A DNA stretch of 64,000 nt from a virus. Below, piece after piece: positions 1-34,945 of this stretch (position 1 is its first letter; each line of letters starts with the position of its first letter). The stretch lies in the IMG/VR virus record IMGVR_UViG_3300020438_000012, positions 38,474 to 102,473 of that record. The stretch is one strand, 5' to 3'. The position numbers and the translations under genes were made by a program. Below the pieces are notes generated by a model. It saw only the letters and a list, made by a program, of their open reading frames with translations, was not told the origin of the DNA and did not search any database.

Positions 1-2
1 GT

Positions 3-557
3 TCGCCTGGTAACTTCGTTGACAAGACCACCGGCGTTGAAGCTTTCCGTTCTTCTACTCTTGCGTCTGGTCCGGCATTCACCGGTACGGTTCGTGAGTG
101 GTATGAGACTCTTATCGAGACGATCATCGACGTTGGTAATACCATCCACCGTAAGACTCTCCGCGGCGCGGCGAACTTCATCGTGGTTGGCCCAGACGTT
201 GCAACGATCCTCGAGGCTTCTGTCTACTACCGTCCGTCTCTGAGCATCGACGGTGATGGTCAGGTTGCTACTCCATTCAGCCTAGGTGCTGAAAAGGTTG
301 GCACTCTTTCCAATCGTTTCACAGTCTACAAGGATCCATACTTCCCACGGAACAAGATTCTCGTCGGATACAAGGGTGGTTCCTACCTCGAGACTGGTTA
401 CGTCTACGCTCCGTACGTGCCGTTGATCATCACGCCTACAATCTTTGCCCCAGAGGACTTCACCCCGCGTAAGGGTGTTATGACTCGCTACGGCAAGAAG
501 CTTGTTCGTGCCGACTTCTACGGTACCGTCACCTGCCTTAAGATGAACATTATTTAA
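3..557 (+). CDS. Major capsid protein, gp23-like, C-terminal part (partial)
   Basis: The window opens inside this gene; the reading frame is open from base 3 to the TAA at 555-557, giving the last 184 residues. The C-terminal half has the T4 gp23 family signature: ETGYVYAPYVPL, then PRKGVMTRYGKK and RADFYGTVTC close to the end. gp23 forms the hexamers of the prohead shell and in T4 is matured by the gp21 protease. The start and the likely cleavage site lie upstream of the window. A strong terminator follows directly, so this gene ends a transcription unit, as expected for the most abundant structural protein. Confidence 0.93.
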   Translation, partial: SPGNFVDKTTGVEAFRSSTLASGPAFTGTVREWYETLIETIIDVGNTIHRKTLRGAANFIVVGPDVATILEASVYYRPSLSIDGDGQVATPFSLGAEKVGTLSNRFTVYKDPYFPRNKILVGYKGGSYLETGYVYAPYVPLIITPTIFAPEDFTPRKGVMTRYGKKLVRADFYGTVTCLKMNII

Positions 558-704: not shown

Positions 705-1193
705 ATGCCAAAAGTAACAATTGATAACAGTAGAGGTCTCGTTCAAGAGACGGGGACCGGCGTGGTAATTAAAGCATCCGGGGCAATCGGTCAGAAATAT
801 ACCGCAGTCACATCACTCATCTCTGGCGGTGCCAACGATGTAGAAATGACACTAACACAACCTGCAAACTCTGTTCTTTGTGATGTAGGGTTTATTTTGA
901 CAACTGCAATTGCAGGTTCTAGTGGTAACTCAAACTTTAAGGTAGGAACTGCCGACGATGGCGCACAAATTGTTGCAGCAACTGCTTTGATGAGTTCAGC
1001 AACGGCTGCGGCAATTGGTTCCGGCATTACACTTTCTGGTCTTAAGAGTGAAGGAGCAGCAGCCCTTGCCATTGTAGCCGATGCTGCAGTCTACACGGCA
1101 ACAGAGCGAACACTTTTTCTTCGTCTTGAAAATTCTGCAGCAATTACTGCCGGTGCTGGAAAAGCATTCATTAGTTACATGATCTTGCCGTAG
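705..1193 (+). CDS. Putative virion structural protein, copy A of a tandem pair
   Basis: A 162-residue protein with AAGGAG 9 bases before the ATG. Not a family I can name with certainty. It is Ala/Gly/Thr-rich, predicted mostly beta, has no cysteine-based motif, and starts MPKVTIDNSRGLVQETGTG. It shares long identical or near-identical stretches with the next gene (ANDVEMTLTQPAN, TADDGA, SGLxSEG), so the two arose by duplication. Position directly after the capsid gene suggests a capsid decoration, fibre or other surface protein; this is inference from place and composition. It could instead be a minor tail or head protein. Confidence 0.75.
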   Translation: MPKVTIDNSRGLVQETGTGVVIKASGAIGQKYTAVTSLISGGANDVEMTLTQPANSVLCDVGFILTTAIAGSSGNSNFKVGTADDGAQIVAATALMSSATAAAIGSGITLSGLKSEGAAALAIVADAAVYTATERTLFLRLENSAAITAGAGKAFISYMILP

Positions 1194-5342: not shown

Positions 5343-8300
5343 ATGGCGGAACAGACATTTAGATCACCAGGCTTCTTTGAGCAGGAGATCGACTTATCCG
5401 GTCGAACGCAAGCTGTTGAAGGCGTCCCGGCAGGAATTATTGGAACATCAAAGCGTGGACCAGCTTTTGTACCTGTTACAATCGGTACTTTTGCCGATTT
5501 TCAGCAAACATTCGGTGGACTAGATCCGAAGCGTTTTGCTCCTTATGCGGTTGAGCAATGGCTTAAGAATAGAACCGCTGTAACTTTTACAAGGGTCTTA
5601 GGCGCCGGCGCAAATAGAACAGCCGAAGATATTGCTCGAACGCGCCAGTATGGCGTTGCAAAGGCTGCAGGGTTCATCATCAGTGGATCTCAGAACGCAG
5701 GGGCTTCCTATGCACGTTCACAGGGTTCTGTAAAGTTTCTCTGTGCTGTGCACGATGCCGTTGCTCAAGAAACGCAAGGTTTCCCTGTCCTTACTGACAA
5801 TGCGTCGATTGCTAGTGCAGATGCTGCAAACCTAGTAAGAGGAATGGTTCTTCTAGCTTCCGGAACTTCGATGTTTGTTACGGGAACTGAGTTAGGCCTT
5901 AGTTCTATGACTCCAGCCTTGATTGCCGGAGATACGCTGGCTGACGACGCAACTGCTGATGCATCGGGAGACTTTAGAATTATTCTCTCATCGTCTGCCA
6001 CTAACTTTACAAACGATGCAGGCAAAAAGGGTGGAAACACTCAAGCAAAAATCTTTGCAGCATCTTTTGTTCCACAAAGTGAAAACTACATCGGAAAAGT
6101 TCTTAACACTGATCCACTAAAATTCCAGCAAGAGCAGCATCTATTATATGCCGACTTCCTTGTTGAAGACGAACTTGCAACTACAAAGTCAAAAGCGGTA
6201 GCAATCGTTTCAGGTTCGGCAACAACCGCCGCGCAGAGCGCAGCGGGCGGAACAACGGGTAAGTTTGAAGACTTCTTTGGAAGATTCGATGCTAGGTACA
6301 CAACACCAACCACGACAAACGTAACATCTCAGCCTTTCGGAAAAAAGGTTTATGATCTATTCAGGTTTGAAACGCTGGATGATGGTGAGTTTGCAAATAA
6401 TCGATTTAAGATTTCGATTGCAAACATTGTTGCTTCTACAGATCCTTCCAACAAGTTTGGAAAGTTTGATGTTCAGGTAAGAGCATTTAGTGACACGGAT
6501 CTAGCACCTCAGATTTTAGAAGTATTCCCAGAGTGTAATCTTGACCCTACGAGTGATCGATATATCGCCGCGGTAGTCGGTGACAAGAAAGTTGTCTTTG
6601 ATCATGATGCTCAAATTGCGGAAGAGCGCAGGCTTGTTATTACAGGCAAATATGCGAACGTTTCGAGATTCATAAGAGTGCTTCCGGAAACAGGCGTTCA
6701 AGATGGAGACGTTCCTAACGATGCACTTCCTTTCGGTTTCAGAGGCATTCCGGTTGTTAAGACATCAGATACAATGACCGACACTAAGGCCGCCCTGGCT
6801 TTTGATGGGCGGACCCTAGGCGTAGAATCAGCATTCAGACTGCACGGCGTTGTTTCGGAGACTAAGGCAACTGCCGCGGCCAACGGTCTAACAGGCTCAA
6901 TTGTTCCTCCGCTACCTCTTCGCTACAAAGTCACTCGCGGAGCTACTCTTGGAACTGGATACGAAGGCAATCCTGGCGCCGATGAAAGAACCGACGGTAG
7001 ATTCTATTGGGGTGTCAAGTTTGAAAAAATGGCACACACAGAATCGCTAGGAACCCCGGTTCTAAATCCCAATGTTTCTTCAACACCTAATCCTCTAGTT
7101 GCAGCATATACCAAGTTAACTGGAATCTCTAAGCTTGATATGAGCGTTACGGGATCCGGCGCCGATGCGTTTAACAATAATGCTTTCACTCTTTCTCGAG
7201 TGGCTGTCGGCCCTGATACGGATAACGGTACCCCTGCAACTCCGCCTACAAAGTTTGCTGAGATTACTGGATCTGCAAAAGCACACATGCTTTCATCGGT
7301 CTACGTAAGAAATGGTACTCTTAAGTCTAACGTTGTAGACTCAGTTACGCAACAATACGTTGTTGATACTTCGCTAAACTCTAACCGAGTTACTTTGGCG
7401 ACTTTGCTTGCGTCCTCTTCGGTTGTGTTTAATAGGTTTACTCCTTTTGCTAAGTTTACAATTCCATTCCACGGTGGCACAGACGGATTCAACTTGCTTG
7501 ATCCCGATGCCGGCTTTGGCAATGATCGATCTACGTCACAAGATGCAGGTGGTTTAGCAGGATCGACAGCAGATATCGGCCTAAGAGCAACTTCTTACAT
7601 TGCTGATGCTCCTGGGGAAAGCACTAACGCCATGGGAATTGGTTTTAACAACAACTCAATTTCTTCCTTTAGGACTGCTGCAGAAATTAACACAGACCCG
7701 TTTGCGGTTAGGATTAATCTTCTGGCGATTCCTGGAATTAAGGATGCGGCAGTTTCAGACTTTGCAAGTGAGCGCATGCGAGATTACAGCCAAGGGTTGT
7801 ACGTTATGGATATTCCTGAATTTGGAATGAAAGACGGAACTACATCAACTCGGCTGTTTGATGACAGCACTCTTCGCGCGGACGTTTTAGAAACTGCTGA
7901 GCAATTTGCCGGAAGAGCGCTTGACAACAGTTTCGTTACATCATATTTCCCAAGCGTTATTATTGAAGATAGTCAAAACAAGCGTCGAGTCAAGGTTCCG
8001 CCTTCGATTGCTGCGCTTGCTGCTTTTGGTTTTAATGATCGTGTTGCTTATCCATGGTTTGCGCCGGCAGGGTTTAACAGAGGCGCTCTTGAGTTTGTCA
8101 AGAATACATCTACTAGACTTACGCAAGCCGATAGAGATACCCTGTATGAAAACAGGATCAATCCGATTGCAAACTTCCCAACAGGTGGATTTGTTATCTT
8201 CGGGCAGAAGACACTTCAGCAGACCTCCTCTGCACTCGACCGTGTAAATGTTAGAAGAATGTTGCTTGAAGTGAAGAGAATTATTTCCCAAGTTGCAAGA

Positions 8301-8552
8301 AACCTCTTGTTCGAACAGAATAACGCAACTACGAGGAATCGCTTTGTCTCTCAGACAACGCCGCTTCTTGCGCTTATTCAAGCTCAGCAGGGAATTGAAT
8401 CTTTTCAAGTTGTCATGGACAATACAAATAATACCGAGCTCGACAGAGAGCAAAATAGGCTTAACGGCAGAATTGTTGTGGTCCCAACAAGAGCAATCGA
8501 GTTTGTTGCTATTGACTTCATCATAACAAATGCCGGAGTATCCTTCGAATGA
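5343..8552 (+). CDS. Tail sheath protein, gp18-like, copy 1
   Basis: A 1069-residue protein, far longer than T4 gp18 (659). It starts FRSPGFFEQEIDLSGRTQ, then PAGIIGTSKRGPAFVPVTIG, the conserved N-terminal pattern of myovirus sheath proteins. The C-terminal domain is also typical: YPWFAPAGFNRG, INPIANFPTGGFVIFGQKTL, SALDRVNVRRMLLEVKR. The sheath contracts to drive the tube through the envelope. The middle (about 150-650) is where sheath proteins carry variable outward domains. The next gene is a clear paralogue. Confidence 0.95.
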   Translation: MAEQTFRSPGFFEQEIDLSGRTQAVEGVPAGIIGTSKRGPAFVPVTIGTFADFQQTFGGLDPKRFAPYAVEQWLKNRTAVTFTRVLGAGANRTAEDIARTRQYGVAKAAGFIISGSQNAGASYARSQGSVKFLCAVHDAVAQETQGFPVLTDNASIASADAANLVRGMVLLASGTSMFVTGTELGLSSMTPALIAGDTLADDATADASGDFRIILSSSATNFTNDAGKKGGNTQAKIFAASFVPQSENYIGKVLNTDPLKFQQEQHLLYADFLVEDELATTKSKAVAIVSGSATTAAQSAAGGTTGKFEDFFGRFDARYTTPTTTNVTSQPFGKKVYDLFRFETLDDGEFANNRFKISIANIVASTDPSNKFGKFDVQVRAFSDTDLAPQILEVFPECNLDPTSDRYIAAVVGDKKVVFDHDAQIAEERRLVITGKYANVSRFIRVLPETGVQDGDVPNDALPFGFRGIPVVKTSDTMTDTKAALAFDGRTLGVESAFRLHGVVSETKATAAANGLTGSIVPPLPLRYKVTRGATLGTGYEGNPGADERTDGRFYWGVKFEKMAHTESLGTPVLNPNVSSTPNPLVAAYTKLTGISKLDMSVTGSGADAFNNNAFTLSRVAVGPDTDNGTPATPPTKFAEITGSAKAHMLSSVYVRNGTLKSNVVDSVTQQYVVDTSLNSNRVTLATLLASSSVVFNRFTPFAKFTIPFHGGTDGFNLLDPDAGFGNDRSTSQDAGGLAGSTADIGLRATSYIADAPGESTNAMGIGFNNNSISSFRTAAEINTDPFAVRINLLAIPGIKDAAVSDFASERMRDYSQGLYVMDIPEFGMKDGTTSTRLFDDSTLRADVLETAEQFAGRALDNSFVTSYFPSVIIEDSQNKRRVKVPPSIAALAAFGFNDRVAYPWFAPAGFNRGALEFVKNTSTRLTQADRDTLYENRINPIANFPTGGFVIFGQKTLQQTSSALDRVNVRRMLLEVKRIISQVARNLLFEQNNATTRNRFVSQTTPLLALIQAQQGIESFQVVMDNTNNTELDREQNRLNGRIVVVPTRAIEFVAIDFIITNAGVSFE

Positions 8553-8586: not shown

Positions 8587-11500
8587 ATGGCTGAGCTGAC
8601 TTTTAGAAGCCCCGGCGTTAGCACGAGGGAGATCGACCTCAGCGGTCCTCAACCGACACAACCTCAGGGAACACCTGCAGCGGTCGTTGGTACCGCAGAG
8701 AAAGGTCCGGCATTCGTTCCTGTGACCTTTGCATCCTATCGGGATTTTGCGTCAAAATTTGGCAACACCGATGGTGAAAAGTTTGGACCAATTGCAATTG
8801 CGCAGTGGTTTGCAAACAGGCAAGCCGGAACTTACTTAAGGGTTCTCGGCGCCGGCGATGGAAAAACAAGAGCCTCAGACGGATCTGTTACGAGAGCAGG
8901 CTTTGTCGTTGGCAGCCGGCTTCCTCAAGCCAGTGGATTGCTGGGAGATAATGTTCATGCAAACACAGGTGGCGTTGGTGAAGGTAGAACATTTTTTCTT
9001 GGCTGCTTCATGTCTGAATCAGCCGGAAGCACGATTTTTTCTGAAGCGGGATTAACTGGTAATAAGGCACACTCTATTCTCCGTGGCGTTATTCTGGCTC
9101 CTTCCGGAGTTGTTCCATTCCTTTCTTCAACACTCGAAACCGATAACGCTCCAAACGCCGCGGCTGGAGCTGCTGGTATTCCAAACTCGGCAGGTGGATC
9201 AGATGCCGGAGCATTGATTGGAACTGTTAATAAAGTTTCTCAAGAGTTTGTTCTTCTCCTTAATGGTCTTAAGCAAACCGAAAGCGAAGGAAAGAATATT
9301 ATTACAGCTTCTTTCGATCCGCAAGCTTCCAATTATTTCCCTAATGTCCTTAACACTGATCCGCTTCTTATCGAGTCTCAAGGTCATTTACTTTACCGTC
9401 ATTATGACGTCTACAGTTCATATGCTCAAATTACAGGAAGCGGATATGCCGGAAGCCTAGGCGCTCCCGTTCTCGGTGGAAATTTAGAGCAGGCAGCCTT
9501 TATTACAACAGGGTCACTTGCTAAGAATACCCAGTCTGCAGAAGTTCCAAACTTCGAAGCATTCAAAGATCGCTTCCAACATGCATTCTCTCCGTTCGTT
9601 GTTTCACAGAAATTTGGTGGTTCACCTACAAACCTCTTTAAGGTCCACTGCTTAGATGCTGGCTTGTATCCAAATAAGCGGTTTAAGGTAAGTGTTGAAA
9701 ACATTCAGAAGTCCAACAATCCAGACGTTAAGTTTGGAAAGTTTGACGTTGTTGTGCGAGAATTTGGCGATGATGACAGAAACCTAAGAGTTCTCGAAGC
9801 TTTCCGTGGCCTCTCTATTGATCCAAATTCAGAGAGATATGTCGCACGCGTCATTGGCGATCTAAACACTTTCTACGACTTTGATCAGAGACCCGGTAGC
9901 CAGAAGGTTGTTGTTGAGGGTAAGTTCCCTAATTCGTCAAACCTTATTCGAGTTCAGATGAACTCTGTGGTTGATGACGGAGAAATTGACCAAGAAGCTC
10001 TCCCGGTTGGCTTCAGAGGATTAAACCACCTCGTCACATCAGGAACTACCGCTGCTGGAAACGTTATGTTAGCGTCAACCGGTTCAACGGTTGGAGCTGT
10101 CGTTCATGTTTCGGCTTCATTGTTTAAGGGAACACCTGTTGAGCCACCTGTTCCATTCCGCAGAAACGTTGCAGTTGGAACCGGTACTGCTAAGAGATCA
10201 GATGCTCAGCTTTACTGGGGCGCTCAATTTGAGCCTCTGGACAGCTTGACACTGCCCAACAAGAATAACGCACCTCAAATCCAGCGTTCTCCGATGGATG
10301 CATACACAAATTACTTTGCAAACTACCATGTTGGTTCAAGAAATCCATCTGTCGGTGGTAACGAAGGAACGGCAAACGACGGCGGTGTTGTTCTAGACGC
10401 AGATGCGTTTAACAACAACATCTTCTCCCTAGAGAGGGTTCAGGTCGTAACAAGTTCAACCGACGTTGTTGATTCCAAGGAATGGCAGGCAGCCGTTTAC
10501 AGAAGAGACGAAGCACTGGCTTCGAGCCTTACTAAGAATGATGGAGTCACTCAACCTGGAAGATTCTTGAACATTGATAAAGACTTTGGTGATATTGCAT
10601 CTAAGCAATTCTTTAAGTTCTCATTCCCGGTTCAAGGTGGGTTTGACGGAGTAAACATCTTCGACGATGACAAGTCAAACCTTCTTGATGTTGCTATCAA
10701 GCGAGAGGTTGCCGACTCTAATCAGGGCGGCATCAACGGACCAACCGTACAGTCTTACAGAAAGGCTATAGACATTCTAGAAGAAAAGTCAGATGTCGAC
10801 ATTCAGTTGCTTGCAATTCCAGGTATCCGTCAGTCGCAGGTCACAGACTATGCCATTGACGCCGTTGAGAACAGGTTCGATGCTCTCTACATTATGGACA
10901 TCCCTGTTAGCGATGCCGAAAACAATGAAATTACCGGGTCGGCCGGCCTGCCAAATGTAACAAACACTGTTACGACATTCAAGGGTCGCCCACTCGATAG
11001 CAGCTTTGCCGCAGCGTACTTCCCCGACGTCGTCGTCACTGATCCAACTACCAACACTAACGTGCAAGTGCCGCCAAGTGTTGCTGTTCTCGGTGCCTTC
11101 GGTCTCAACGATGCCGTGGCTTTCCCTTGGTTCGCGCCTGCCGGGTTTGCCCGCGGTGCTCTTGCAGCCTCTGAGGTCGCAGTTAAGACGAACAGATCAA
11201 ACCTCGATGCTCTATACGACGCTAGGATTAATCCGATTACGGTATTCCCAGGTCAGGGTGGCCCAACGATCTTTGGACAGAAAACGTTGCAGGCCGCAGA
11301 GTCTGCGCTTGATCGTGTTAATGTTCGTCGCCTCCTTATCGAGATCAGACGCCAGGTCCGGCAGGTCGCGAACACCTTTATCTTCGAGCCGAACAGGGAG
11401 ACGACGCTTGCTCGATTCTCTGGCGCGGTAACTCCGATCCTTAATAGAATTCAGCAGCAGCAAGGTGTTGATAGGTTCAGAGTGCAGATTGATACGACAA

Positions 11501-11622
11501 CAACGACCCAGGCGGACGTTGAGAACAACACGGTGAGAGGAAAGATTTTCCTCCAGCCTACTCGCTCCGTCGAGTTCATCTCTCTTGACTTCGTCGTTTC
11601 GAACGCCGGTGCAGAGATCTAA
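8587..11622 (+). CDS. Tail sheath protein, gp18-like, copy 2
   Basis: A 1011-residue paralogue of the preceding gene. It shares FRSPGVSTREIDLSGPQ, KGPAFVPVTF, FPNVLNTDPLL, FPWFAPAGFARGAL, FGQKTL and SALDRVNVRRLLIEIRR. N- and C-terminal cores are closely similar; the middle domains are much more diverged. Codon use is similar to its neighbours, so a within-lineage duplication is likely. Both copies keep the C-terminal core needed for sheath contacts, so both could assemble, either mixed or as separate sections of the sheath. Confidence 0.95.
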   Translation: MAELTFRSPGVSTREIDLSGPQPTQPQGTPAAVVGTAEKGPAFVPVTFASYRDFASKFGNTDGEKFGPIAIAQWFANRQAGTYLRVLGAGDGKTRASDGSVTRAGFVVGSRLPQASGLLGDNVHANTGGVGEGRTFFLGCFMSESAGSTIFSEAGLTGNKAHSILRGVILAPSGVVPFLSSTLETDNAPNAAAGAAGIPNSAGGSDAGALIGTVNKVSQEFVLLLNGLKQTESEGKNIITASFDPQASNYFPNVLNTDPLLIESQGHLLYRHYDVYSSYAQITGSGYAGSLGAPVLGGNLEQAAFITTGSLAKNTQSAEVPNFEAFKDRFQHAFSPFVVSQKFGGSPTNLFKVHCLDAGLYPNKRFKVSVENIQKSNNPDVKFGKFDVVVREFGDDDRNLRVLEAFRGLSIDPNSERYVARVIGDLNTFYDFDQRPGSQKVVVEGKFPNSSNLIRVQMNSVVDDGEIDQEALPVGFRGLNHLVTSGTTAAGNVMLASTGSTVGAVVHVSASLFKGTPVEPPVPFRRNVAVGTGTAKRSDAQLYWGAQFEPLDSLTLPNKNNAPQIQRSPMDAYTNYFANYHVGSRNPSVGGNEGTANDGGVVLDADAFNNNIFSLERVQVVTSSTDVVDSKEWQAAVYRRDEALASSLTKNDGVTQPGRFLNIDKDFGDIASKQFFKFSFPVQGGFDGVNIFDDDKSNLLDVAIKREVADSNQGGINGPTVQSYRKAIDILEEKSDVDIQLLAIPGIRQSQVTDYAIDAVENRFDALYIMDIPVSDAENNEITGSAGLPNVTNTVTTFKGRPLDSSFAAAYFPDVVVTDPTTNTNVQVPPSVAVLGAFGLNDAVAFPWFAPAGFARGALAASEVAVKTNRSNLDALYDARINPITVFPGQGGPTIFGQKTLQAAESALDRVNVRRLLIEIRRQVRQVANTFIFEPNRETTLARFSGAVTPILNRIQQQQGVDRFRVQIDTTTTTQADVENNTVRGKIFLQPTRSVEFISLDFVVSNAGAEI

Positions 11623-11661: not shown

Positions 11662-12150
11662 ATGGCAGAGACACTTTCAGTCACCGATATGTTGCCGAAC
11701 AAGTTTGAGCCGAAGCGACAGTTTCGGTGGGTGTTCGCGATCGAGGGTATCGACGCGTTCCTCATGAAGACTGCTGCTCGTCCAACAATTAACACCGAGG
11801 AAGTGACGATTCCTTTTATCAACTCAACTCGCTACATCGCCGGCAAAACAACGTTTGATACGCTCAGCGTTACGCTCCACGATCCGATTGCACCTTCCGG
11901 TGCACAGCAGGTTATGGAATGGATCCGCACCCACTTTGAGTCTGTTTCAGGCCGCGCTGGTTATGCCGACTTTTACAAGCGAGATTGCCAGATCAAGATG
12001 CTTGACCCGGTCGGCACCGTCGTAGAGCTTTGGGACATCAAAGGATCGTTTATTACTTCTGCCGGGTTTGGAGACTTGAGCTACGATTCCTCAGATCCTT
12101 CTGAGATTTCGCTAACACTTAGGTTTGATAATTGCGTCCTGCAGTTCTGA
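11662..12150 (+). CDS. Tail tube protein, gp19-like
   Basis: A 162-residue protein (T4 gp19 is 163). It begins with a short helix and NKFEPKRQFRWVFAIEGID, then RPTINTEEVTIPFINSTRYIAGK and DTLSVTLHDPI, and ends SEISLTLRFDNCVLQF. This is the gp19/Hcp-like tube fold, which stacks as hexameric rings inside the sheath. It follows the sheath genes, as 18-19 do in T4. AGGAG sits 8-12 bases before the ATG. Confidence 0.93.
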   Translation: MAETLSVTDMLPNKFEPKRQFRWVFAIEGIDAFLMKTAARPTINTEEVTIPFINSTRYIAGKTTFDTLSVTLHDPIAPSGAQQVMEWIRTHFESVSGRAGYADFYKRDCQIKMLDPVGTVVELWDIKGSFITSAGFGDLSYDSSDPSEISLTLRFDNCVLQF

Positions 12151-12166
12151 TGTAGGGAAAACACTG

Positions 12167-12457
12167 ATGAAAATCACAAAACGACAACTTAGAAGAATCA
12201 TCAAGGAGGCAATGCACTCCGAGTATGAGGATCTCTTCGACAACTCCCCGCCTCGACGCAAGGAGTCAATGCACTCCGACCCTCGCGAAGAAGCGCGAGA
12301 TATTCTGCGACACTACGATATGATAGCGTCAGATGTTGGCGAGATCTATGTTGATGATTTAATCGATCACTGGGTTGGTCAAGGAAACCCTTCGCCAGGC
12401 CCTGGTGTTCGGGCGGAATTGATCAAGCTAAATTACGGAAACGAATATTTTAGGTGA
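12167..12457 (+). CDS. Leader-family protein 1
   Basis: A 96-residue protein that opens the leader array. Start chosen at the ATG that begins MKITKRQLRRIIKEA; a TTG further upstream would overlap the tube gene. Residues 1-15 are the shared basic amphipathic leader. The remainder (SEYEDLFDNSPPRRKES..., DDLIDHWVGQGNPSP) resembles no other array member. IKE followed by Ala fits the (L/I)xE cleavage pattern of T4-type prohead proteases. Function of the body is unknown. Confidence 0.85.
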   Translation: MKITKRQLRRIIKEAMHSEYEDLFDNSPPRRKESMHSDPREEARDILRHYDMIASDVGEIYVDDLIDHWVGQGNPSPGPGVRAELIKLNYGNEYFR

Positions 12458-12466
12458 TGGTTTAAA

Positions 12467-12733
12467 ATGCGAATTACAAAGCGACAGCTTAAAACAATCA
12501 TTAAGGAAGAGAGGTTCCGTCTTTTGAACGAGGCCTCGCTTCAGCGTTCCAAGGCCCAGGTAGAAAATGCTTTGGGCAGCTTGCTCGTTGATTACATGGA
12601 AGAGCACTTGGACATGAGCGGCTCAAATAGAGAAGACGCTTTGCGTCGTGCAAAGGAAGACCTCAAAAGCTTCGTTCGTGGCGCAATTGCAAACGCAGTA
12701 GACTTTGAACGAGATCCGCAGTCATACACTTGA
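12467..12733 (+). CDS. Leader-family protein 2
   Basis: An 88-residue protein beginning MRITKRQLKTIIKEERFRLLNEA. The LNE-Ala at residues 20-23 fits the (L/I)xE prohead-protease pattern. The body is helical and charged (SKAQVENALGSLLVDYMEEHLDM, quoted in outline) with no recognised domain. It starts 9 bases after the previous stop. Confidence 0.85.
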   Translation: MRITKRQLKTIIKEERFRLLNEASLQRSKAQVENALGSLLVDYMEEHLDMSGSNREDALRRAKEDLKSFVRGAIANAVDFERDPQSYT

Positions 12734-12751
12734 TACACTTAGGGAAATACA

Positions 12752-13015
12752 ATGAAAATTACAAAGAGACAACTTAGAAGAATCATCAAGGAAGAGAGAA
12801 CGCGCATTCTCAGTGAGAACATGCATGACGCTCAGGGTTTCTACGAGAAGAAGCTCACAATTCTCAACACAGCACTTTCGGCCCTAGAGGCAGCCAAGGA
12901 TCACGAGAGAACAAGTGCAATGGGCGAAGATCCTGATCTAAACCAGCTTGTTAACATGGTCATTGGTTACATCGATGCCGTTGGTTCCATGGTTCAAATG
13001 GGAAGGCGCAGATAA
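12752..13015 (+). CDS. Leader-family protein 3
   Basis: An 87-residue protein with leader MKITKRQLRRIIKEERTRILSEN. LSE at residues 20-22 matches the putative cleavage pattern. The body is a predicted helical hairpin (YEKKLTILNTALSALEAAKD, then LNQLVNMVIGYIDAVGSM). No recognised domain. An AGGG ribosome site precedes the ATG. Confidence 0.85.
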   Translation: MKITKRQLRRIIKEERTRILSENMHDAQGFYEKKLTILNTALSALEAAKDHERTSAMGEDPDLNQLVNMVIGYIDAVGSMVQMGRRR

Positions 13016-13016
13016 A

Positions 13017-13355
13017 ATGAAAATCACTAAAAGACAACTAAGAAGAATCATCAAGGAAGCCGCTATGCCGGGAGAAATGGTCAAAGTCACCGTTTCAATG
13101 GACGTTCCGTTCGGCTTGTTCCTTGATGTCGACGACCGCCGGCCGAACCCAGAAATGGAAAGTTTGGAAGATATTGAGATGAATATCGAGGACGCATTGC
13201 GCGACTGGTTACAGCAATCTCTCAGAGAATTTCAGGGAGGCAACAGTGCTGCGTTTAAGGGCAAGCAGGGTGTTGAGCAACTTAGTCATGTCGAAATAAT
13301 TGAAACCGCAACCTATTCAGCAATGGATGACATCAAAGTATCAGTGAAGAGGTAA
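13017..13355 (+). CDS. Leader-family protein 4
   Basis: A 112-residue protein. Start chosen at the ATG for MKITKRQLRRIIKEAAMPG, one base after the previous stop; an upstream in-frame start would run through gene 3. IKE-Ala gives a cleavage-like site at residue 14. The body (MVKVTVSMDVPFGLFLDVDD, then acidic helices and NIEDALRDWLQQSLREF) is a mixed alpha/beta fold that I do not recognise. Confidence 0.85.
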   Translation: MKITKRQLRRIIKEAAMPGEMVKVTVSMDVPFGLFLDVDDRRPNPEMESLEDIEMNIEDALRDWLQQSLREFQGGNSAAFKGKQGVEQLSHVEIIETATYSAMDDIKVSVKR

Positions 13356-13357
13356 CC

Positions 13358-13618
13358 ATGAAAATCACAAAGTCACAACTGAAGAGAATCATCAAGGAAG
13401 AAAGAGCTAAACTCGTGAACGAGGCTCCTTCGGAAGACCTTATTACACTAGCCGCCATAGAAAACCATATTGGCATGCTAAAGCGTATGCTTGATGTGGC
13501 GGTAGACGGGGGCATGATGTCCTACAATGAACATGACGACCTGGTCGACGCGCTCTACGATGTGGAAGGCGCGCTTCAAAAAGTAGCAGAAGGCGGCTCC
13601 GGCGCTCCGAGTTTCTAA
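13358..13618 (+). CDS. Leader-family protein 5
   Basis: An 86-residue protein with leader MKITKSQLKRIIKEERAKLVNEA, the cleavage-like VNE-Ala at residues 20-23. The body is two predicted helices (LAAIENHIGMLKRMLDVAVD and YNEHDDLVDALYDVEGALQK) with a short Gly/Ser tail. Unknown function. Confidence 0.85.
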   Translation: MKITKSQLKRIIKEERAKLVNEAPSEDLITLAAIENHIGMLKRMLDVAVDGGMMSYNEHDDLVDALYDVEGALQKVAEGGSGAPSF

Positions 13619-13634
13619 AAGGATTACCAAGCAT

Positions 13635-14051
13635 ATGAAAATCACGAAGCGCCAGCTTAGAAGAATCATCAAGGAAGAGTTGACTCGCGGTAGATACGAT
13701 GAGTTAACCGACGAGTTGTCAGACTTGTACTCCAAGATCGAAGACGCAAAAAGTTTACCTGAACCAAATCGCACTGCCTCTTTTCAGTTTTACCAGAATG
13801 CCATCAATCAGCTTCAAGCTTATCTTGCAAAAGCTCGTGCGGAAGGCCTTTCAGAAATAAGCGAAGACTCGAATCCCGGTGATTACTACGCCAGAAAGGA
13901 TCGAGAAGCTCGCGCACTTTCCGGCCAAGTTAATGCAATGCGTAAAAAGTTAAGCGGTTTACGTCAAGGTTCTCCCGAGCATCGCAAAGCCACTAAAGAA
14001 CTCCGGGGACTAGAACAACGCCTTGAGTTAGCAAAGTATGTAGGAGATTAA
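13635..14051 (+). CDS. Leader-family protein 6
   Basis: A 138-residue protein with leader MKITKRQLRRIIKEELTRG. The body is almost all helix and probably coiled coil (ELTDELSDLYSKIEDAK; QVNAMRKKLSGLRQ; KELRGLEQRLELAKYV). No recognised domain. The next start lies 1 base after its stop. Confidence 0.85.
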   Translation: MKITKRQLRRIIKEELTRGRYDELTDELSDLYSKIEDAKSLPEPNRTASFQFYQNAINQLQAYLAKARAEGLSEISEDSNPGDYYARKDREARALSGQVNAMRKKLSGLRQGSPEHRKATKELRGLEQRLELAKYVGD

Positions 14052-14052
14052 C

Positions 14053-14322
14053 ATGAAAATTGCAAAACGACAGCTTAGAAGAATTATCAGGGAAGAGAAG
14101 CAGAGAGTCATCAATGAAAAACTTGCCGGACACCAGCATCAAAGACTGCTTGAAGACATTAGCATCATGTTTGAGAAAGAAATAAACACAAGGCTCAGCC
14201 AGGTCGACGGCGACTGGTATAGAGACCCTGAAACAGTGCAGGCTGTATCCGATATGCTTGACATGCTAAAGCGGCAAATGAAGTCATATGGGAAAGAGCG
14301 CTCTTGGTGGAGGGAGCGGTGA
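14053..14322 (+). CDS. Leader-family protein 7
   Basis: An 89-residue protein with leader MKIAKRQLRRIIREEKQRVINEK; INE at residues 20-22 fits the cleavage pattern. The body is helical (LLEDISIMFEKEINTRLSQ; ETVQAVSDMLDMLKRQMKS). Its stop codon overlaps the next gene's GTG start (GTGA). Confidence 0.85.
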   Translation: MKIAKRQLRRIIREEKQRVINEKLAGHQHQRLLEDISIMFEKEINTRLSQVDGDWYRDPETVQAVSDMLDMLKRQMKSYGKERSWWRER

Positions 14323-14585
14323 AAATCACAAGGCACCAACTCAGAAGAATCATTAAGGAAGAGAAGGCCCGGCTAGCCGAGGCAAACCCTGACGGAACTG
14401 TGTCCGACAACGAGGATGCAGAGATTTTTGTCTTTCTTGCCGACGTTGAGGAACGCATCGAAGAGCTCGCGCAATTCATTGTAATGGAGTCTGAGAGAAT
14501 CGGTGGTCGCTTCAGAGCACCCGGGCTTAGAAAGAGAGCGTTTCAGTCGATCCTCGAAATCATTCGTGAAGACTATAGGTTTTAG
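14319..14585 (+). CDS. Leader-family protein 8
   Basis: An 88-residue protein. GTG start chosen because it begins VKITRHQLRRIIKEEKARLAEA exactly at the leader and overlaps the previous stop by 4 bases. LAE-Ala at residues 19-22 fits the (L/I)xE pattern. The body has an acidic stretch and a helix (AEIFVFLADVEERIEELAQF). Unknown function. Confidence 0.82.
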   Translation: MKITRHQLRRIIKEEKARLAEANPDGTVSDNEDAEIFVFLADVEERIEELAQFIVMESERIGGRFRAPGLRKRAFQSILEIIREDYRF

Positions 14586-14657
14586 AGTTTCGCGACGAAG
14601 CTCGTCAGCGTATCATGAACAATTTAGAGCACGCTTCAAACCAAAAAGGAAAGTAAA

Positions 14658-15083
14658 ATGAGAATCACAAAGAGGCAGCTTAGAAGAATTATTAAGGAAG
14701 AGAGATCACGTCTGCTTGCGGAGACCCGCGTTCGCCGTTTTGTAAGACGAAAGCTTATGGAACAGCGCGGAACTGCGGTCATTGATGAACTTGCCGTGGA
14801 CTTGCTGAGGGATCTCACCATGTATCACCAGCGAGGCGTCGACTCTCTGGCTAATGAGTACAGATCTAGAGTTGCTGCACTTGGGCTTAGCAGAGAAGAT
14901 TTCGAGGAGCAACTCGGCGATGCCTTCACTGACGGTGATCCAGAGGCTGCATCTCGTTTTGAAGAGTATCGTGATGAGGAAGACGCAATGCGCGACGGAA
15001 TGCCTCACAACGAAGAGATGGCTGCAGCATGGGACGACTTTGGTTTGATCCGGCGTGATTTGGCAGCAGCACTGTACCGATAG
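14658..15083 (+). CDS. Leader-family protein 9
   Basis: A 141-residue protein with leader MRITKRQLRRIIKEERSRLLAET. Residues 40 to about 105 (AVIDELAVDLLRDL..., LGLSREDFEEQLGDAFTDGDP) match the C-terminal domain of the next gene, so these two are true paralogues, unlike most array members. The domain is helical and acidic. Function unknown. Confidence 0.85.
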   Translation: MRITKRQLRRIIKEERSRLLAETRVRRFVRRKLMEQRGTAVIDELAVDLLRDLTMYHQRGVDSLANEYRSRVAALGLSREDFEEQLGDAFTDGDPEAASRFEEYRDEEDAMRDGMPHNEEMAAAWDDFGLIRRDLAAALYR

Positions 15084-15091
15084 GAAGTTCT

Positions 15092-15982
15092 GTGCGAATT
15101 AGAATTACGAGAACTCAGCTGCGTAGAGTCATTAGGGAATCCTGCCGCAGGATGGGTTCTCGTAATTCCTCTATTCGCTTGCTAGAAGATAATCACACCT
15201 ATTGGGACCGATACCACGCGAAATGGCTCGAAACCGCACAGATGAGTGAGGAAGATTTTCAAGCGCTCGCGGACGAGTACAGGGCCATGGCCGCCGCCGG
15301 TGAAAAGGCGGCGAAGGGATACAAGGAGCGCGACCCAGACAACGTCCCTCAGGGTCCATGGACCGGTAATCGCGAGTATTGGAAAAACCCTGACATGAAA
15401 GGTTACAAGTTTACAGCGCGTCATCGGAATGTCGTCCCGCCCATGAATCTTGACATTCGACCCGAATACCCTATATTGTTTGGTATGTCTCTCGAAGATG
15501 CTTACAATATCCACGCGGCCTCGCCCGCCGGGTTATATCCCTATGGTTCTGGCAAGCCGGCGGGGACGGGGTACGCGGACTACGTGGAATACTACACGCG
15601 GAAAGACGTGAAGGCTCGCATTGCTCAAGCGAAAAAAAAATTCGCAAGTACACCGAAAGCCAAGCGTGATTTTGAAGACGAGCGCTACAGATGGGCGATC
15701 TGGCAGGTCGGCGACGAAGGACCTCCAGAAGCAGTCATAGATGATCTTGCTTTGGACTTGTTGAGAAACGTTCGCAAGTACGCCAAGAGCGGCGTCGGGC
15801 GCCTGGCCGGCAGATACAGGAAAAAAATCCTTAAGCTTGGAATGAGTAAGGAAGATTTTGACACTGCGTTTGGCGATGCCATGACGGACGGTGATCCAGA
15901 AGTCTCTGACCGATTTTACAGGTACAAGGGTGATGATCTCCCGCAACTCATAAATGACTTAGTGTCAAAAATATATCGATAA
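15092..15982 (+). CDS. Leader-family protein 10, long form
   Basis: A 296-residue protein, the largest of the array, with a GTG start and a diverged leader (VRIRITRTQLRRVIRES). Residues 214-296 (AVIDDLALDLLRNV..., LGMSKEDFDTAFGDAMTDGDP) are homologous to residues 40-141 of the previous protein. The middle, about 35-213, is an extra segment rich in Tyr, Lys and Pro (SEEDFQALADEYRAMAAAGE; EYPILFGMSLEDAYNIHAAS) that I cannot assign. Confidence 0.82.
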   Translation: MRIRITRTQLRRVIRESCRRMGSRNSSIRLLEDNHTYWDRYHAKWLETAQMSEEDFQALADEYRAMAAAGEKAAKGYKERDPDNVPQGPWTGNREYWKNPDMKGYKFTARHRNVVPPMNLDIRPEYPILFGMSLEDAYNIHAASPAGLYPYGSGKPAGTGYADYVEYYTRKDVKARIAQAKKKFASTPKAKRDFEDERYRWAIWQVGDEGPPEAVIDDLALDLLRNVRKYAKSGVGRLAGRYRKKILKLGMSKEDFDTAFGDAMTDGDPEVSDRFYRYKGDDLPQLINDLVSKIYR

Positions 15983-15991
15983 GGAATTTCA

Positions 15992-16186
15992 ATGCGAATC
16001 ACAAAGCGCCAGCTTAAAAGAATCATTCTCGAAATGTACCATGATGACCAGCCGGATAGCATCTCGCAGAGACTAAAACTACGAAATGATATCGGAGAGC
16101 TGTCAATGAGCTTTGTTAGAACCGGTCTTGACAGAGACGAGGTTGCAGGAATCTTGCGTGACGTTGCAGACGGAATTGAGAGATAG
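15992..16186 (+). CDS. Leader-family protein 11
   Basis: A 64-residue protein with leader MRITKRQLKRIILEMYHDD; ILE at 12-14 fits the cleavage pattern. The rest (LRNDIGELSMSFVRTGLDRD, EVAGILRDVADGIER) resembles the C-terminal half of the leader protein at 29966. It closes the array. Confidence 0.82.
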   Translation: MRITKRQLKRIILEMYHDDQPDSISQRLKLRNDIGELSMSFVRTGLDRDEVAGILRDVADGIER

Positions 16187-16254: not shown

Positions 16255-17082
16255 ATGAGCAACCGTGGATCAAACGCCGTCTTTTCGGGTGGCATTCAAC
16301 AAACAGACGTAATGAAGGATTCTTTCGGCTACGAAGTGCCGGTTGAATCTGTTCCCCTGCCATCGCTTGGAAAGGCGTATCCAGAAGGAAACCCTCTCAG
16401 CGGTCAGGAAACCGTTGAGATTCGGGCAATGACAGCAAGAGAGGAAGATATCCTAACCTCTCGTGCGCTTATTAAAAAGGGCACTGTTATCACCCATCTT
16501 ATTAAGTCTTGCCTCACAAACAAGTCTATCGATGTCCGGAACATGATTTCTGGCGATCGTAACGCTTTGATGATCTCGCTGCGAATCACGGGTTACGGCC
16601 AAGAGTACGGTGTCGAGGTTGAGTGTCCGGCATGCGGAACTCGCTCAAAACAAGACTTTGATCTTGCAGCACTCGAGGTTAAGACCCTTGATATCGACCC
16701 GGTCACTCCCGGTACAAACGAATTTGAATTTGTTCTTCCGGTTACAAAGAAAAAAGTAACCTTTAAGTTTCTAACAGGGGCAGACGAAGAAGAGATTGCA
16801 GTTGTTCAAGAGCGCAAGAAGAAGAGTGGCTTTAAGTCCGATAATCTTATTACAACGCGCCTTATGTATTCCATTGTTTCAATCGACGGAATTACGGACA
16901 AATCAAAAATCAACGGCTTTATTCGAAACATGCCGGCTCGAGACTCACTCTTACTTCGCCGCTATATTGATCAGAATGAGCCAGGCATCGACATGAAGTC
17001 TTGGATGTCCTGCCAGAGTTGCTTTACTGATTCGGAGGTACGGTTGCCACTGGGCGCCACGTTTTTTTGGCCTGACGCCTAG
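16255..17082 (+). CDS. Baseplate hub/assembly protein, gp26-like zinc protein (zero-frame product)
   Basis: A 275-residue protein of the T4 baseplate (gp26-type) family by overall pattern: PLPSLGKAYP, VEIRAMTAREEDILTSRALI, then a C-terminal domain with FIRNMPARDSLLLRRYI. Cysteine pairs CPAC (124-127) and CQSC (253-256) can bind one zinc. In T4, gp26 and gp51 are needed for hub assembly and lie near the tail-length gene. The zero frame ends a few codons after a seven-T run at 17062-17068, and a second open frame continues, so a frameshifted longer product is likely. Confidence 0.7.
   Translation: MSNRGSNAVFSGGIQQTDVMKDSFGYEVPVESVPLPSLGKAYPEGNPLSGQETVEIRAMTAREEDILTSRALIKKGTVITHLIKSCLTNKSIDVRNMISGDRNALMISLRITGYGQEYGVEVECPACGTRSKQDFDLAALEVKTLDIDPVTPGTNEFEFVLPVTKKKVTFKFLTGADEEEIAVVQERKKKSGFKSDNLITTRLMYSIVSIDGITDKSKINGFIRNMPARDSLLLRRYIDQNEPGIDMKSWMSCQSCFTDSEVRLPLGATFFWPDA
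17062..17068 (+). other. Candidate translational frameshift site (T7 run)
   Basis: The zero frame reads ACG TTT TTT TGG and stops at 17080-17082. A second frame is open from 16997 to 17332. A +1 or -2 shift on the seven T bases would fuse the two. Tail-assembly genes just before tape-measure genes often use such a shift (lambda G/GT at -1, Mu at -2). Confidence 0.6.
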
Positions 17083-29965: not shown

Positions 29966-30184
29966 ATGAAGATCACTAAAAGACAGTTAAGAAAACTTGT
30001 GCTTGAAGCACAGAGTACCGAAGCAACATACGTTTCGCCCGATGTAGTTTCTAAGTACATGCGAGAGATCGAGGCTAAGCTAAACGAACTTTCTGACATG
30101 GGGATGACGAACGATCAGCTCGTTATTATTATGGAAGAAATTACTCAAGACATCAGAGATGGATTCGTAGGAGAATCAACATGA
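29966..30184 (+). CDS. Leader-family protein 12
   Basis: A 72-residue protein with leader MKITKRQLRKLVLEA, far from the main array. VLE-Ala at 12-15 fits the cleavage pattern. The C-terminal half (LNELSDMGMTNDQLVIIMEE, ITQDIRDGF) resembles the leader protein at 15992, so the two are probably related over their full length. It overlaps the next start (ATGA). Confidence 0.82.
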   Translation: MKITKRQLRKLVLEAQSTEATYVSPDVVSKYMREIEAKLNELSDMGMTNDQLVIIMEEITQDIRDGFVGEST

Positions 30185-30417
30185 AAATCACAAAGAGACA
30201 ACTTAAGAAGCTTATTAACGAAGAAAAGGCTCGTCTAACCGAAGCAGCTAGCATTACGGCAACAGACAACTTAGAGACCGCCATGGATGAGTACGTTAGT
30301 TCATATCTAAGGATTTCTAAGGGACAAGACATGAGTGGTGCGCTTGCATCCTTAAGTGAGCAAGTTGAAGGATACATCGAGTTCCAGAGCGGTCTAGACG
30401 AACCCGAGCGACCATAG
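30181..30417 (+). CDS. Leader-family protein 13
   Basis: A 78-residue protein with leader MKITKRQLKKLINEEKARLTEA. LTE-Ala at 19-22 fits the cleavage pattern. The body is helical (TATDNLETAMDEYVSSYLRI; ALASLSEQVEGYIEF). Unknown function. Confidence 0.82.
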   Translation: MKITKRQLKKLINEEKARLTEAASITATDNLETAMDEYVSSYLRISKGQDMSGALASLSEQVEGYIEFQSGLDEPERP

Positions 30418-32585: not shown

Positions 32586-33530
32586 ATGGTCCTATTAGTT
32601 GATGGGATGAATTGCTTTATTCGGCATTACATAGCGAATCCGTCGATGACAAACAATGGGGATCCTGCGGGTGGCGTCGTAGGGTTTCTTAGAATGTTAG
32701 CGAGTCTTTCGGAAAAGTTTTCACCAAGTGAAATTCACGTTGTTTGGGAAGGTGGCGGCAGTCTTCGCCGGCGGGCAATCTTTTCCGACTACAAGAAAGG
32801 TAAGAAGCCTAAGAAGATGAATCGCTACTACGGCGATGAGATTCCTGATTCACATCAAAACAAGATTGGACAAGTTGAGTTTCTCACAAAGTGTTTAAGA
32901 CATCTTCCAGTTACGCAACACTACGTAAAAGACTGTGAGGCAGATGATGTAATTGGCTACCTCGGAAGGTACAAGTTTAAAAATACGGAAGTAGTAATAG
33001 TGTCTTCGGACAAAGATTTCTATCAATTGATCGATGACCGCGTTACTGTTTGGTCACCAAATCAGAAAAAAATAATCGGTAAGGCGGACGTTCTGGAGAA
33101 AATGCATTCATTGCCATCAAATATGACAGTGGTAAGGGCTTGTGTCGGAGACTCTAGTGACAACATTGGCGGTGTCAAGAGAGTTGGTTTAAAAAGTTTG
33201 TCAAACCGAGTTGAGATTTTGCGGTCAACCGAGAATGTCAGCTTAGACGATTTATTTATAGAGTGCCAAGAACGAGCGAAGACGTCTAAACTTCAAATCT
33301 ATGCGAGCATACTAGAAAGCAAAGATCTCATCAGGCGCAACTTTAAACTCATGCATCTCGACATTTCAAACTTGGCAGGCAATCAAATACAAAAAATTGA
33401 AGGAAGCTTAGAGATCTATGAGAAGTCATATAACAAGATTGCATTCTTGAGCTGTCTTAAAAAATTTGGTTTAGTAAACTATGATCCTTCGCGGTTATTC
33501 TTGTCCATGAACATTCTCAATAGGCGATAA
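32586..33530 (+). CDS. 5'-3' exonuclease / flap endonuclease, copy 1
   Basis: A 314-residue protein of the FEN/T4 RNase H/Pol I-N family. It has MVLLVDGMNCFIRHY at the N-terminus, KDCEADDVIGYL, VVIVSSDKDFYQLID and VGDSSDNIGGVKRVGLKS (helix-hairpin-helix), which hold the metal-binding Asp/Glu residues. It removes RNA primers and flaps. It lies 2 bases after the recombinase gene and before the helicase. A second FEN-type gene is at 54077. Confidence 0.88.
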   Translation: MVLLVDGMNCFIRHYIANPSMTNNGDPAGGVVGFLRMLASLSEKFSPSEIHVVWEGGGSLRRRAIFSDYKKGKKPKKMNRYYGDEIPDSHQNKIGQVEFLTKCLRHLPVTQHYVKDCEADDVIGYLGRYKFKNTEVVIVSSDKDFYQLIDDRVTVWSPNQKKIIGKADVLEKMHSLPSNMTVVRACVGDSSDNIGGVKRVGLKSLSNRVEILRSTENVSLDDLFIECQERAKTSKLQIYASILESKDLIRRNFKLMHLDISNLAGNQIQKIEGSLEIYEKSYNKIAFLSCLKKFGLVNYDPSRLFLSMNILNRR

Positions 33531-33532
33531 AA

Positions 33533-34945
33533 ATGCAAGCAGAAAAAGTAGAACTACACGGGAACAATTCATGTTTTTCACATTATGGAAAACCGTTTCA
33601 GGAAAAGATCTTCCAAGGTCTCCTTATGGATCGAGAATGGGCTTCCCAGATGTACGAGGTCATGCTCCCGGAGTTCTTTGATCTCAATTATCTGAACTAC
33701 CTAACAAAACTATACTTCAAGTACTACGGCCAATACAAGGCGTTTCCTACACTTCAGCTTCTCATAACGATTATCAAGGAAGATCTGAGCGAGGGAAATG
33801 ATGTGATTCTAAGAGATCAGATTGTTGAGTTTCTTCACAGGCTCAAGTCTAATCCTCATCCTGGTGATATTGGATATGTTAAGGACAAGACACTAGACTT
33901 CTGCAAGCGCCAGGCTTTTAAGGACGCTTTGCACAAGGCCGTTGAACTGATCCAGACAGATCGCTTTGATAGCGTCATTGCACTAATGAAAGATGCTGTC
34001 GCGGTGGGCATGCCTCACTCTATTGGTCATGATTTCTTTGAAGATATCGAAGCTCGATTTGTTAAGTCGCACCGTATTCCTTGTCCTACCGGCTTGCGTA
34101 AACTCGATGCTCCAGACATCTTTGACGGAGGGTTGGGTCGTGGAGAGATCGGTGTTGTAACTGCAAATACCGGTGTTGGTAAGTCTCACTACCTTGTCGC
34201 GATGGGCGCAAACGCTCTTCGTTATGGGAAGAACGTTCTCCATTACACGTTTGAGTTAACCGAGACGGCGGTCGGCCGGCGATACGATGCAAACCTAGCC
34301 GGCATTGATGTCAATGATTTACTTTCCTCAAAGAAGAAAGTTCTTGATTTTTACGAAAACGAGAAACTCGGCCGACTCATTATCAAGGAATACCCGACAG
34401 GGTCGGCTAGCGTTATTACGATTAGAAACCACGTAGAGAAGCTTTCGCTTAAGGGTTTCAAGCCTAACCTAATCGTAATTGATTATGCTGACATTATGAA
34501 GTCAACTAAGTCTTATGACTCGCTTAGGCATGAGCTTAAGCTTGTTTACGAAGAGCTTCGCAACCTTGCAATGGAGATGAACATTCCTGTCTGGACTGCA
34601 AGTCAGGCAAATAGAGATTCTGCAAATAGTGACATTGTCGGCCTTGAGAACATGTCAGAAGCTTACGGAAAAGCCATGGTTGCAGATGTTGTTGTTTCTT
34701 TGAGTAGAAAGGCAATGGAAAAATCGACCGGTCATGGTCGTCTGTATATTGCCAAAAACAGAGCTGGTCGTGATGGAATTTTATTTCCCATGAATATCAA
34801 TACAGCGCAGTCTAGAATTACGTTGCTGGATGAGTCTGAGCTATCGCTCAACGAAGCTGTGAATCAAGATAGCAATGCCGAAAAGAAGCTACTACGCAAG
34901 AAGTGGCGAGAAGTGACACACAAACTTAAGAACGGAGAAGAATAA
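33533..34945 (+). CDS. Replicative helicase, DnaB/gp41-like
   Basis: A 470-residue protein. The N-terminal 170 residues are helical, as in DnaB/gp41. The RecA-type motor has Walker A TANTGVGKS, H/Walker B region NLIVIDYADIM, PVWTASQANRDSAN (motif H3 region) and YIAKNRAGRDGILF (Arg finger region). It unwinds the fork ahead of the polymerase. It overlaps the next gene by one base (TAATG). No primase was seen in the window. Confidence 0.9.
   Translation: MQAEKVELHGNNSCFSHYGKPFQEKIFQGLLMDREWASQMYEVMLPEFFDLNYLNYLTKLYFKYYGQYKAFPTLQLLITIIKEDLSEGNDVILRDQIVEFLHRLKSNPHPGDIGYVKDKTLDFCKRQAFKDALHKAVELIQTDRFDSVIALMKDAVAVGMPHSIGHDFFEDIEARFVKSHRIPCPTGLRKLDAPDIFDGGLGRGEIGVVTANTGVGKSHYLVAMGANALRYGKNVLHYTFELTETAVGRRYDANLAGIDVNDLLSSKKKVLDFYENEKLGRLIIKEYPTGSASVITIRNHVEKLSLKGFKPNLIVIDYADIMKSTKSYDSLRHELKLVYEELRNLAMEMNIPVWTASQANRDSANSDIVGLENMSEAYGKAMVADVVVSLSRKAMEKSTGHGRLYIAKNRAGRDGILFPMNINTAQSRITLLDESELSLNEAVNQDSNAEKKLLRKKWREVTHKLKNGEE

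Follow-up and report, generated by a model that had tools for sequence, protein, structure and literature searches.

The internal proteins of bacteriophage T4 are diverse, with their targeting sequence alone conserved (PMC3012670); targeting sequences of this kind are 10-19 residues long and are cut at L/I-x-E, and an Asp in place of the Glu at the cleavage site stops processing while leaving targeting intact (PMC9026906). In the T4 genome (NC_000866), IPII and IPIII begin MKTYQEFIAE|A, gp22 begins MLKEQLIAE|A and gp24 begins MAKINELLRE|S, with the cut marks placed from the motif and the literature. Propeptides have also been described in phage SPN3US, where two are 20 and 24 residues long, most are 111-254 residues long and the cleavage motif is A/S-x-E (PMC10052503). 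Here we analyse a 64,000-nucleotide window (bases 38474-102473 of the 102,473-base environmental virus record IMGVR_UViG_3300020438_000012), in which eleven tandem open reading frames (ORFs) at 12167-16186 share one N-terminal leader. This leader is very probably a prohead-targeting propeptide cut by a gp21-type protease, and the system as a whole is, with good confidence, best explained as a capsid-targeting propeptide resembling that of the T4 internal proteins, greatly expanded and placed on a hypervariable cassette of cargo genes.

A shared leader with a Glu-specific motif

The leader is a basic N-terminal helix, MKITKRQLRRIIKE, with the consensus MKITKRQLRRIIKEE among the window genes. 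It is common to 13 ORFs of the window, eleven in the array and two outside it at 29966 and 30181, and no further match was found elsewhere in the 102,473-base contig. A first-pass annotation had described the array as eleven tandem genes with one near-identical leader and mostly unrelated bodies, and both statements hold: the ORFs lie at 12167-16186, all on the plus strand, with spacings of -4 to 72 bases and, before most of them, a purine-rich ribosome-binding stretch, and the only bodies found to be related are those of the ORFs at 14658 and 15092, which have in common a domain of about 100 residues at the C-terminus. T4-like late promoters (TATAAATA) showed no excess over chance in the window. 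The window leaders have a mean amino-acid identity of 76% over 15 residues (excluding that of 15092, which is the most divergent and has two extra residues), and within this genome the codons for identical leader residues differ in 40% of cases, which makes the leader a protein-level feature. Comparisons of array genes with their relatives gave ratios of nonsynonymous to synonymous substitution rates (dN/dS) of 0.07-0.37, counting only those with unsaturated dS; because such values indicate purifying selection, we regard the ORFs as real genes.

Leader proteins were collected from fetched environmental virus loci, and their totals are therefore lower bounds. An iterated profile run on 193 environmental loci matched about 870 ORF starts, and because these stand apart from the rest by a sharp score gap, the leader is not a product of chance. 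As in T4-type internal proteins, a shared leader stands before unrelated bodies: at least 941 different complete leader proteins form at least 545 body clusters, of which 445 are singletons among the proteins collected.

Motif statistics were computed on 763 non-redundant leader proteins. In 94.5% of them a hydrophobic-x-Glu motif ends at residue 14, and a second such motif is concentrated at residues 18, 19, 21 and 22 (14% at 21 and 29% at 22, compared with about 2% in the bodies); enrichment is weaker when Asp or Lys takes the place of Glu in the motif. When residues 15-30 were permuted within each protein, preserving composition, the shuffles contained a mean of 54 and a maximum of 76 sites at residues 21/22, against 328 observed. 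Residue 14 is Glu in 712 proteins and Asp in 2, and residues 21/22, where they follow a hydrophobic P3 residue, are Glu in 46% and Asp in 2.4% of cases, versus 9% Glu and 13% Asp in the bodies. Because Glu14 is part of both the DNA search pattern and the profile, leaders were found again by residues 1-11 only, and Glu14 was present in 94-97% of these (91-97% without the seed-pattern matches); the pattern and the profile both leave out residue 15 and residues 17-26. Use of the two sites is complementary (Fisher p ~1e-20), with a second site in 78% of proteins when residue 15 is Glu and in 41% when it is Ala, Ser, Val, Thr or Gln, and when residue 15 is not Glu, Ala is enriched 4.8-fold and Ser 2.9-fold at this position. 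The predicted propeptide would thus be short, as in T4, with 14 residues, or 21-22 if residue 15 is Glu, and would end at the gp21 motif L/I-x-E. A search for a cleavage motif at the C-terminus of the leader proteins showed no enrichment.

The first-pass annotation had also placed a second (L/I/V)xE site just after the leader in many of the eleven proteins, which proved correct for six: protein 2 (12467..12733, 88 residues; LNE|A, residue 22), protein 3 (12752..13015, 87 residues; LSE|N), whose body has homologues in related arrays, protein 5 (13358..13618, 86 residues; VNE|A), protein 7 (14053..14322, 89 residues; INE|K), protein 8 (14319..14585, 88 residues, GTG start; LAE|A) and protein 9 (14658..15083, 141 residues; LAE|T), the first of the two with the common C-terminal domain. 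The other five have no second site. Four of these have IxE at the very end of the leader, the next residue being A, A, S and M, respectively: protein 1 (12167..12457, 96 residues; IIKE|A), protein 4 (13017..13355, 112 residues; IIKE|A), protein 10 (15092..15982, 296 residues, GTG start; VIRE|S) and protein 11 (15992..16186, 64 residues; IILE|M). The fifth, protein 6 (13635..14051, 138 residues), has IKE|E only and is about 58 residues longer than its relatives. Outside the array, also on the plus strand, protein 12 (29966..30184, 72 residues) has the leader end LVLE|A and protein 13 (30181..30417, 78 residues) has LTE|A as a second site.

Links with head assembly

The virion module of this phage is T4-like, with a terminase, portal, gp21-type protease, acidic scaffold-like protein, gp23-type capsid protein, two sheath genes, tube and hub, and nine genome records inspected from end to end all have the module in the same order. 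The greater part of the head module lies upstream of the window, including the prohead protease (contig 33087-33698), which matches the phrog_207 profile (E = 1e-48) and has conserved His (DHP) and Ser (SSRG) motifs when aligned with T4 gp21. The window itself begins within the major capsid protein gene, whose 3' end (1..557, plus strand) matches phrog_138 (E = 4e-70) and whose remainder, which contains ALRE|S as predicted maturation site, lies upstream.

Capsid proteins of all nine genomes carry [VLA][LI][RK]E|[ASQ] at the position of the T4 gp23 cut, in variants such as VLRE|A, ALRE|S, VLRE|Q, LLKE|A and VIRE|A, which are near-identical to the leader ends IIRE|A and VIRE|S. The scaffold-like proteins are acidic, with isoelectric points (pI) of 4.2-4.7, and contain 4-7.5 motifs per 100 residues compared with 1.8 elsewhere, as expected for a protein degraded like T4 gp22. 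When 1,855 proteins outside the leader set, from the nine genomes, were ranked by their likeness to the leader near the N-terminus, two conserved genes directly downstream of the protease filled 12 of the 18 top ranks; these genes stand where T4 has core genes, and in this phage their products begin MAKISKTALKGLIKECLVEILQEG... and MKKMSVTRLRKFILEEAAKVNE....

Of the 45 contigs with a leader, 29 have the protease, and none of the 20 that measure 135 kb or more is without it. A capsid gene is likewise missing from the remaining 16, and for this reason we read these as fragments without the head module. A profile search for the leader in other phages, and for its link with gp21 genes, had been suggested in the first-pass annotation; it has now yielded more than 900 proteins, with a protease in every leader contig that bears a capsid gene and no counter-example among the 45. 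The proposal in the same annotation that the leader is a capsid-targeting signal cut by a gp21-type protease is supported by several independent lines of sequence evidence: the protease, the Glu-specific motif, the capsid site, the N-termini of the head genes and the lack of a counter-example genome.

From the motif, its Glu specificity, the protease, the link with head genes and the turnover of the arrays (see below), we infer how packing, cutting, ejection and early-infection roles would follow one another. The basic amphipathic helix of about 14 residues would carry the newly made protein into the prohead core, where the strongly acidic scaffold protein is its likely docking partner. During maturation, the gp21-type protease would cut after the Glu of hydrophobic-x-Glu, at the leader end (IIKE|A/S) or, in proteins with Glu at residue 15, at the second site around residues 21/22, and the propeptide would leave while the mature body remained in the head with the DNA. 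The body would then probably be ejected into the host, where it may have early roles such as counter-defence; by analogy with T4, we consider it rather likely that most of the cargo takes this route.

Other features of the virion module were noted in passing. The two tail-sheath genes of this phage are tandem and divergent (window 5343-8552 and 8587-11622) and are kept in most related genomes. A duplicated small gene follows the capsid gene (window 705-1193, 162 residues, and 1220-1711, 163 residues) and possibly encodes a decoration protein, and in contig G018 there are adjacent capsid protein genes at 176269 and 178261 with identical N-termini. In two large phage genomes the protease is interrupted next to its catalytic His by about 365 residues that resemble an intein, starting at Cys and ending TGN|S (L313:130-1857, minus strand, contig G042; L314:181-1905, plus strand, LR756508).

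Array turnover, cargo bodies and internal leaders

The nine whole-length records contain 9-41 leader genes each, the 41 being in one 201-kb genome, and the placement of arrays varies among them: there are about 32 leader genes in a row in G004 and 21 in G018, and in G030 a pair of them lies beside the protease. The first-pass annotation's view of an array coded between tail tube and baseplate genes applies to this phage and its close relatives, where the cassette is flanked by the tail tube gene on the left (11662..12150, plus strand; phrog_4542) and the baseplate hub gene on the right (16255..17082, plus strand; phrog_150), but in most of the other genomes examined the arrays lie tens to hundreds of kb away. 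Among the close relatives, tube genes are 96-97% and hub genes 93-95% identical, and the number of genes between them is 5, 10 or 11, with bodies partly shared. The array is a hypervariable cassette, because its contents differ while its flanks stay more than 93% identical.

Four consensus variants of the leader were searched against 50,697 phage records, and the sole match was LR756508, an uncultured phage of 484 kb in which the protease is also present. Judged by portal protein, the nearest relatives in culture are Microcystis phage Mel-JY01, Flavobacterium phage immuto and Rhodothermus phage RM378; all three have the protease and none matches the leader. A search of 84,980 species genomes of bacteria and archaea located the leader on six loci only (five metagenome-bin contigs), and since one of them agrees in length and range with virus record 2788500220_000014, these are probably mis-binned phage contigs, or else hints of hosts. 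The bins of these loci (L307, L308, L309, L310, L311 and L312) are assigned to Methylococcaceae TMED69, Halobacteriovorax, Peribacter and Flavobacteriales. We found no description of this leader in the literature; what is new is the scale, a code that an entire uncultured lineage has in common, and the presence of internal leaders and a hypervariable cassette.

At a score threshold that gave one match in 1,854 non-leader proteins, 29 proteins have a second, internal leader. Hydrophobic-x-Glu stands at the internal leader's own end in 28 of the 29 and no more than 8 residues upstream of it in 15, compared with a random mean of 3.4 and maximum of 11 in 2,000 trials, which is the pattern expected if the internal leader were excised from a two-part cargo protein.

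Among 150 diverse leader proteins, 12 Pfam, 3 PADLOC and 17 PHROG families were matched, each in one member, such that no general body function emerged from this set, and several of the weak Pfam matches are probably compositional. Profile scans of the window proteins gave marginal matches only. The bodies are mostly acidic, with a median pI of 4.7. One leader protein (L031:8038-8979) contains a RelA/SpoT-type (p)ppGpp hydrolase domain, for which the best solved relative has E = 4e-13, and has, in order, the leader, the hydrolase domain, LTEN, an internal leader and a further domain. Its sequence makes a virion-delivered alarmone hydrolase possible, and such a protein would be in keeping with action against the stringent response early in infection. 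Two others are an L,D-transpeptidase whose catalytic motif is present (L184:6258-7055) and a P-loop protein resembling zeta toxin (L176:4122-5516). Such enzyme domains in a few bodies would favor the idea of an effector cargo, put forward in the first-pass annotation, which otherwise draws on the T4 analogy. Structural prediction of the bodies, also suggested there, succeeded in part: protein 8, whose body family (NPDGT..NED) has at least 7 members and a dN/dS of 0.07 against the closest relative, was modelled as three helices with a predicted local distance difference test (pLDDT) score of 77, and protein 10 was modelled poorly (pLDDT 48).

Alternative explanations and comparison with known systems

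Extracellular contractile injection systems also place an N-terminal signal on unrelated effectors, load them into the tail tube and use no prohead protease. The location of the array between tail tube and baseplate hub in this phage and its close relatives would suit loading of the tail tube rather than the head, but in most of the genomes examined the cargo is not encoded with the tail module, the arrays being far from tail genes and, in one case, beside the head protease; the nearest relatives of the leader sit on head genes, and Glu-specific cleavage motifs would not be expected, all of which makes tail loading highly improbable. It is very unlikely, too, that the leader directs proteins to a structure outside the virion (membrane, nucleoid or phage nucleus), with the Glu merely part of an amphipathic helix. 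The leader is indeed basic and amphipathic, with a net charge of about +4.7 without E14 and a helical moment modestly above that of shuffles, about 10% of which reach the same value; however, a helix that requires an acid would tolerate Asp, and yet Glu outnumbers Asp by 712 to 2 at residue 14, and the Glu and Asp frequencies at residues 21/22 (46% and 2.4%) depart from those in the bodies (9% and 13%). Such targeting would also leave the match to the capsid site, the complementarity of the two sites and the head genes unexplained. We give almost no credence to the leader being a repeat effect with no role for the peptide, spread as DNA by recent duplication or a recombination hotspot: arrays are tandem and genes are frequently exchanged, but within one genome 40% of codons differ where the leader residues are identical, and conservation runs as far as the predicted cut site rather than to a boundary in the DNA.

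A further alternative concerns the fate of the cargo, which might be packed into the prohead as structural or DNA-condensing components rather than as injected effectors. T4 heads also contain packed internal proteins of structural consequence, and here conserved head genes bear the same kind of leader. We nonetheless consider this unlikely, given that array content turns over between close relatives, 445 of the 545 body clusters are singletons among the proteins collected, the bodies are mostly acidic (median pI 4.7), unlike DNA-binding proteins, and some of them are enzymes, such as those with the (p)ppGpp hydrolase and L,D-transpeptidase domains.

Several observations weigh against a prohead-targeting propeptide. 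Homology between the leader and the N-termini of T4 internal proteins, gp22 and gp24 was not detectable, the layout alone being alike, and the search of the 50,697 phage records found the leader in no cultured phage, leaving it with no cultured host. The co-occurrence of leader and protease is partly trivial and weighs little, since every record with a head module seems to belong to one T4-like group. A second site also occurs in 41% of the proteins that would not need one, about 10% of leader proteins have no clear candidate site in their first 35 residues, and protein 6 has no candidate except IKE|E. Lastly, the model of protein 8, the sole body reliably modelled, had no match in the PDB and thus resembles nothing solved.

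If the leader works as a prohead-targeting propeptide, hundreds of unrelated, unannotated small proteins would become one defined class, virion cargo, from which candidates for injected factors of counter-defence and host takeover could be listed directly. Sequence alone suffices to recognize the leader, which also predicts exact mature N-termini, and a second, independent head-targeting tag would become available for loading phage heads with foreign proteins. It is quite possible, although we offer this tentatively, that in a large, mostly marine T4-like lineage one universal code targets the products of 10-40 interchangeable cargo genes per genome to the head, polyprotein-like fusions cut on both sides of an internal leader among them, and that the cocktail for counter-defence and host takeover which each virion delivers at infection is thereby changeable.

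Compared with known systems, the arrays resemble extracellular contractile injection systems in having an N-terminal signal on unrelated proteins, but they differ in not being tied to tail genes. Processing by gp245 of the phiKZ-like phage SPN3US is similar in that N-terminal propeptides are cut off after Glu, in a short motif, from many head proteins and ejected proteins (PMC10052503); in contrast, the leader here is common to many small genes, and nothing of this kind is described in that study. The differences from T4 are that the leader is more basic and slightly longer, that it occurs in tandem arrays, with two alternative cut positions and internal leaders, that single genomes have 25-41 leader genes versus three internal proteins, that the bodies are mostly acidic and that the phages are uncultured. 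As in T4 IPI, IPII, IPIII and Alt, however, a short N-terminal propeptide ending in hydrophobic-x-Glu|Ala stands on unrelated bodies, a gp21-type protease is encoded in the same phage and, as with the T4 internal proteins, the cargo varies between related phages. By this analogy, the system would work like the T4 internal proteins and may be counted among them.

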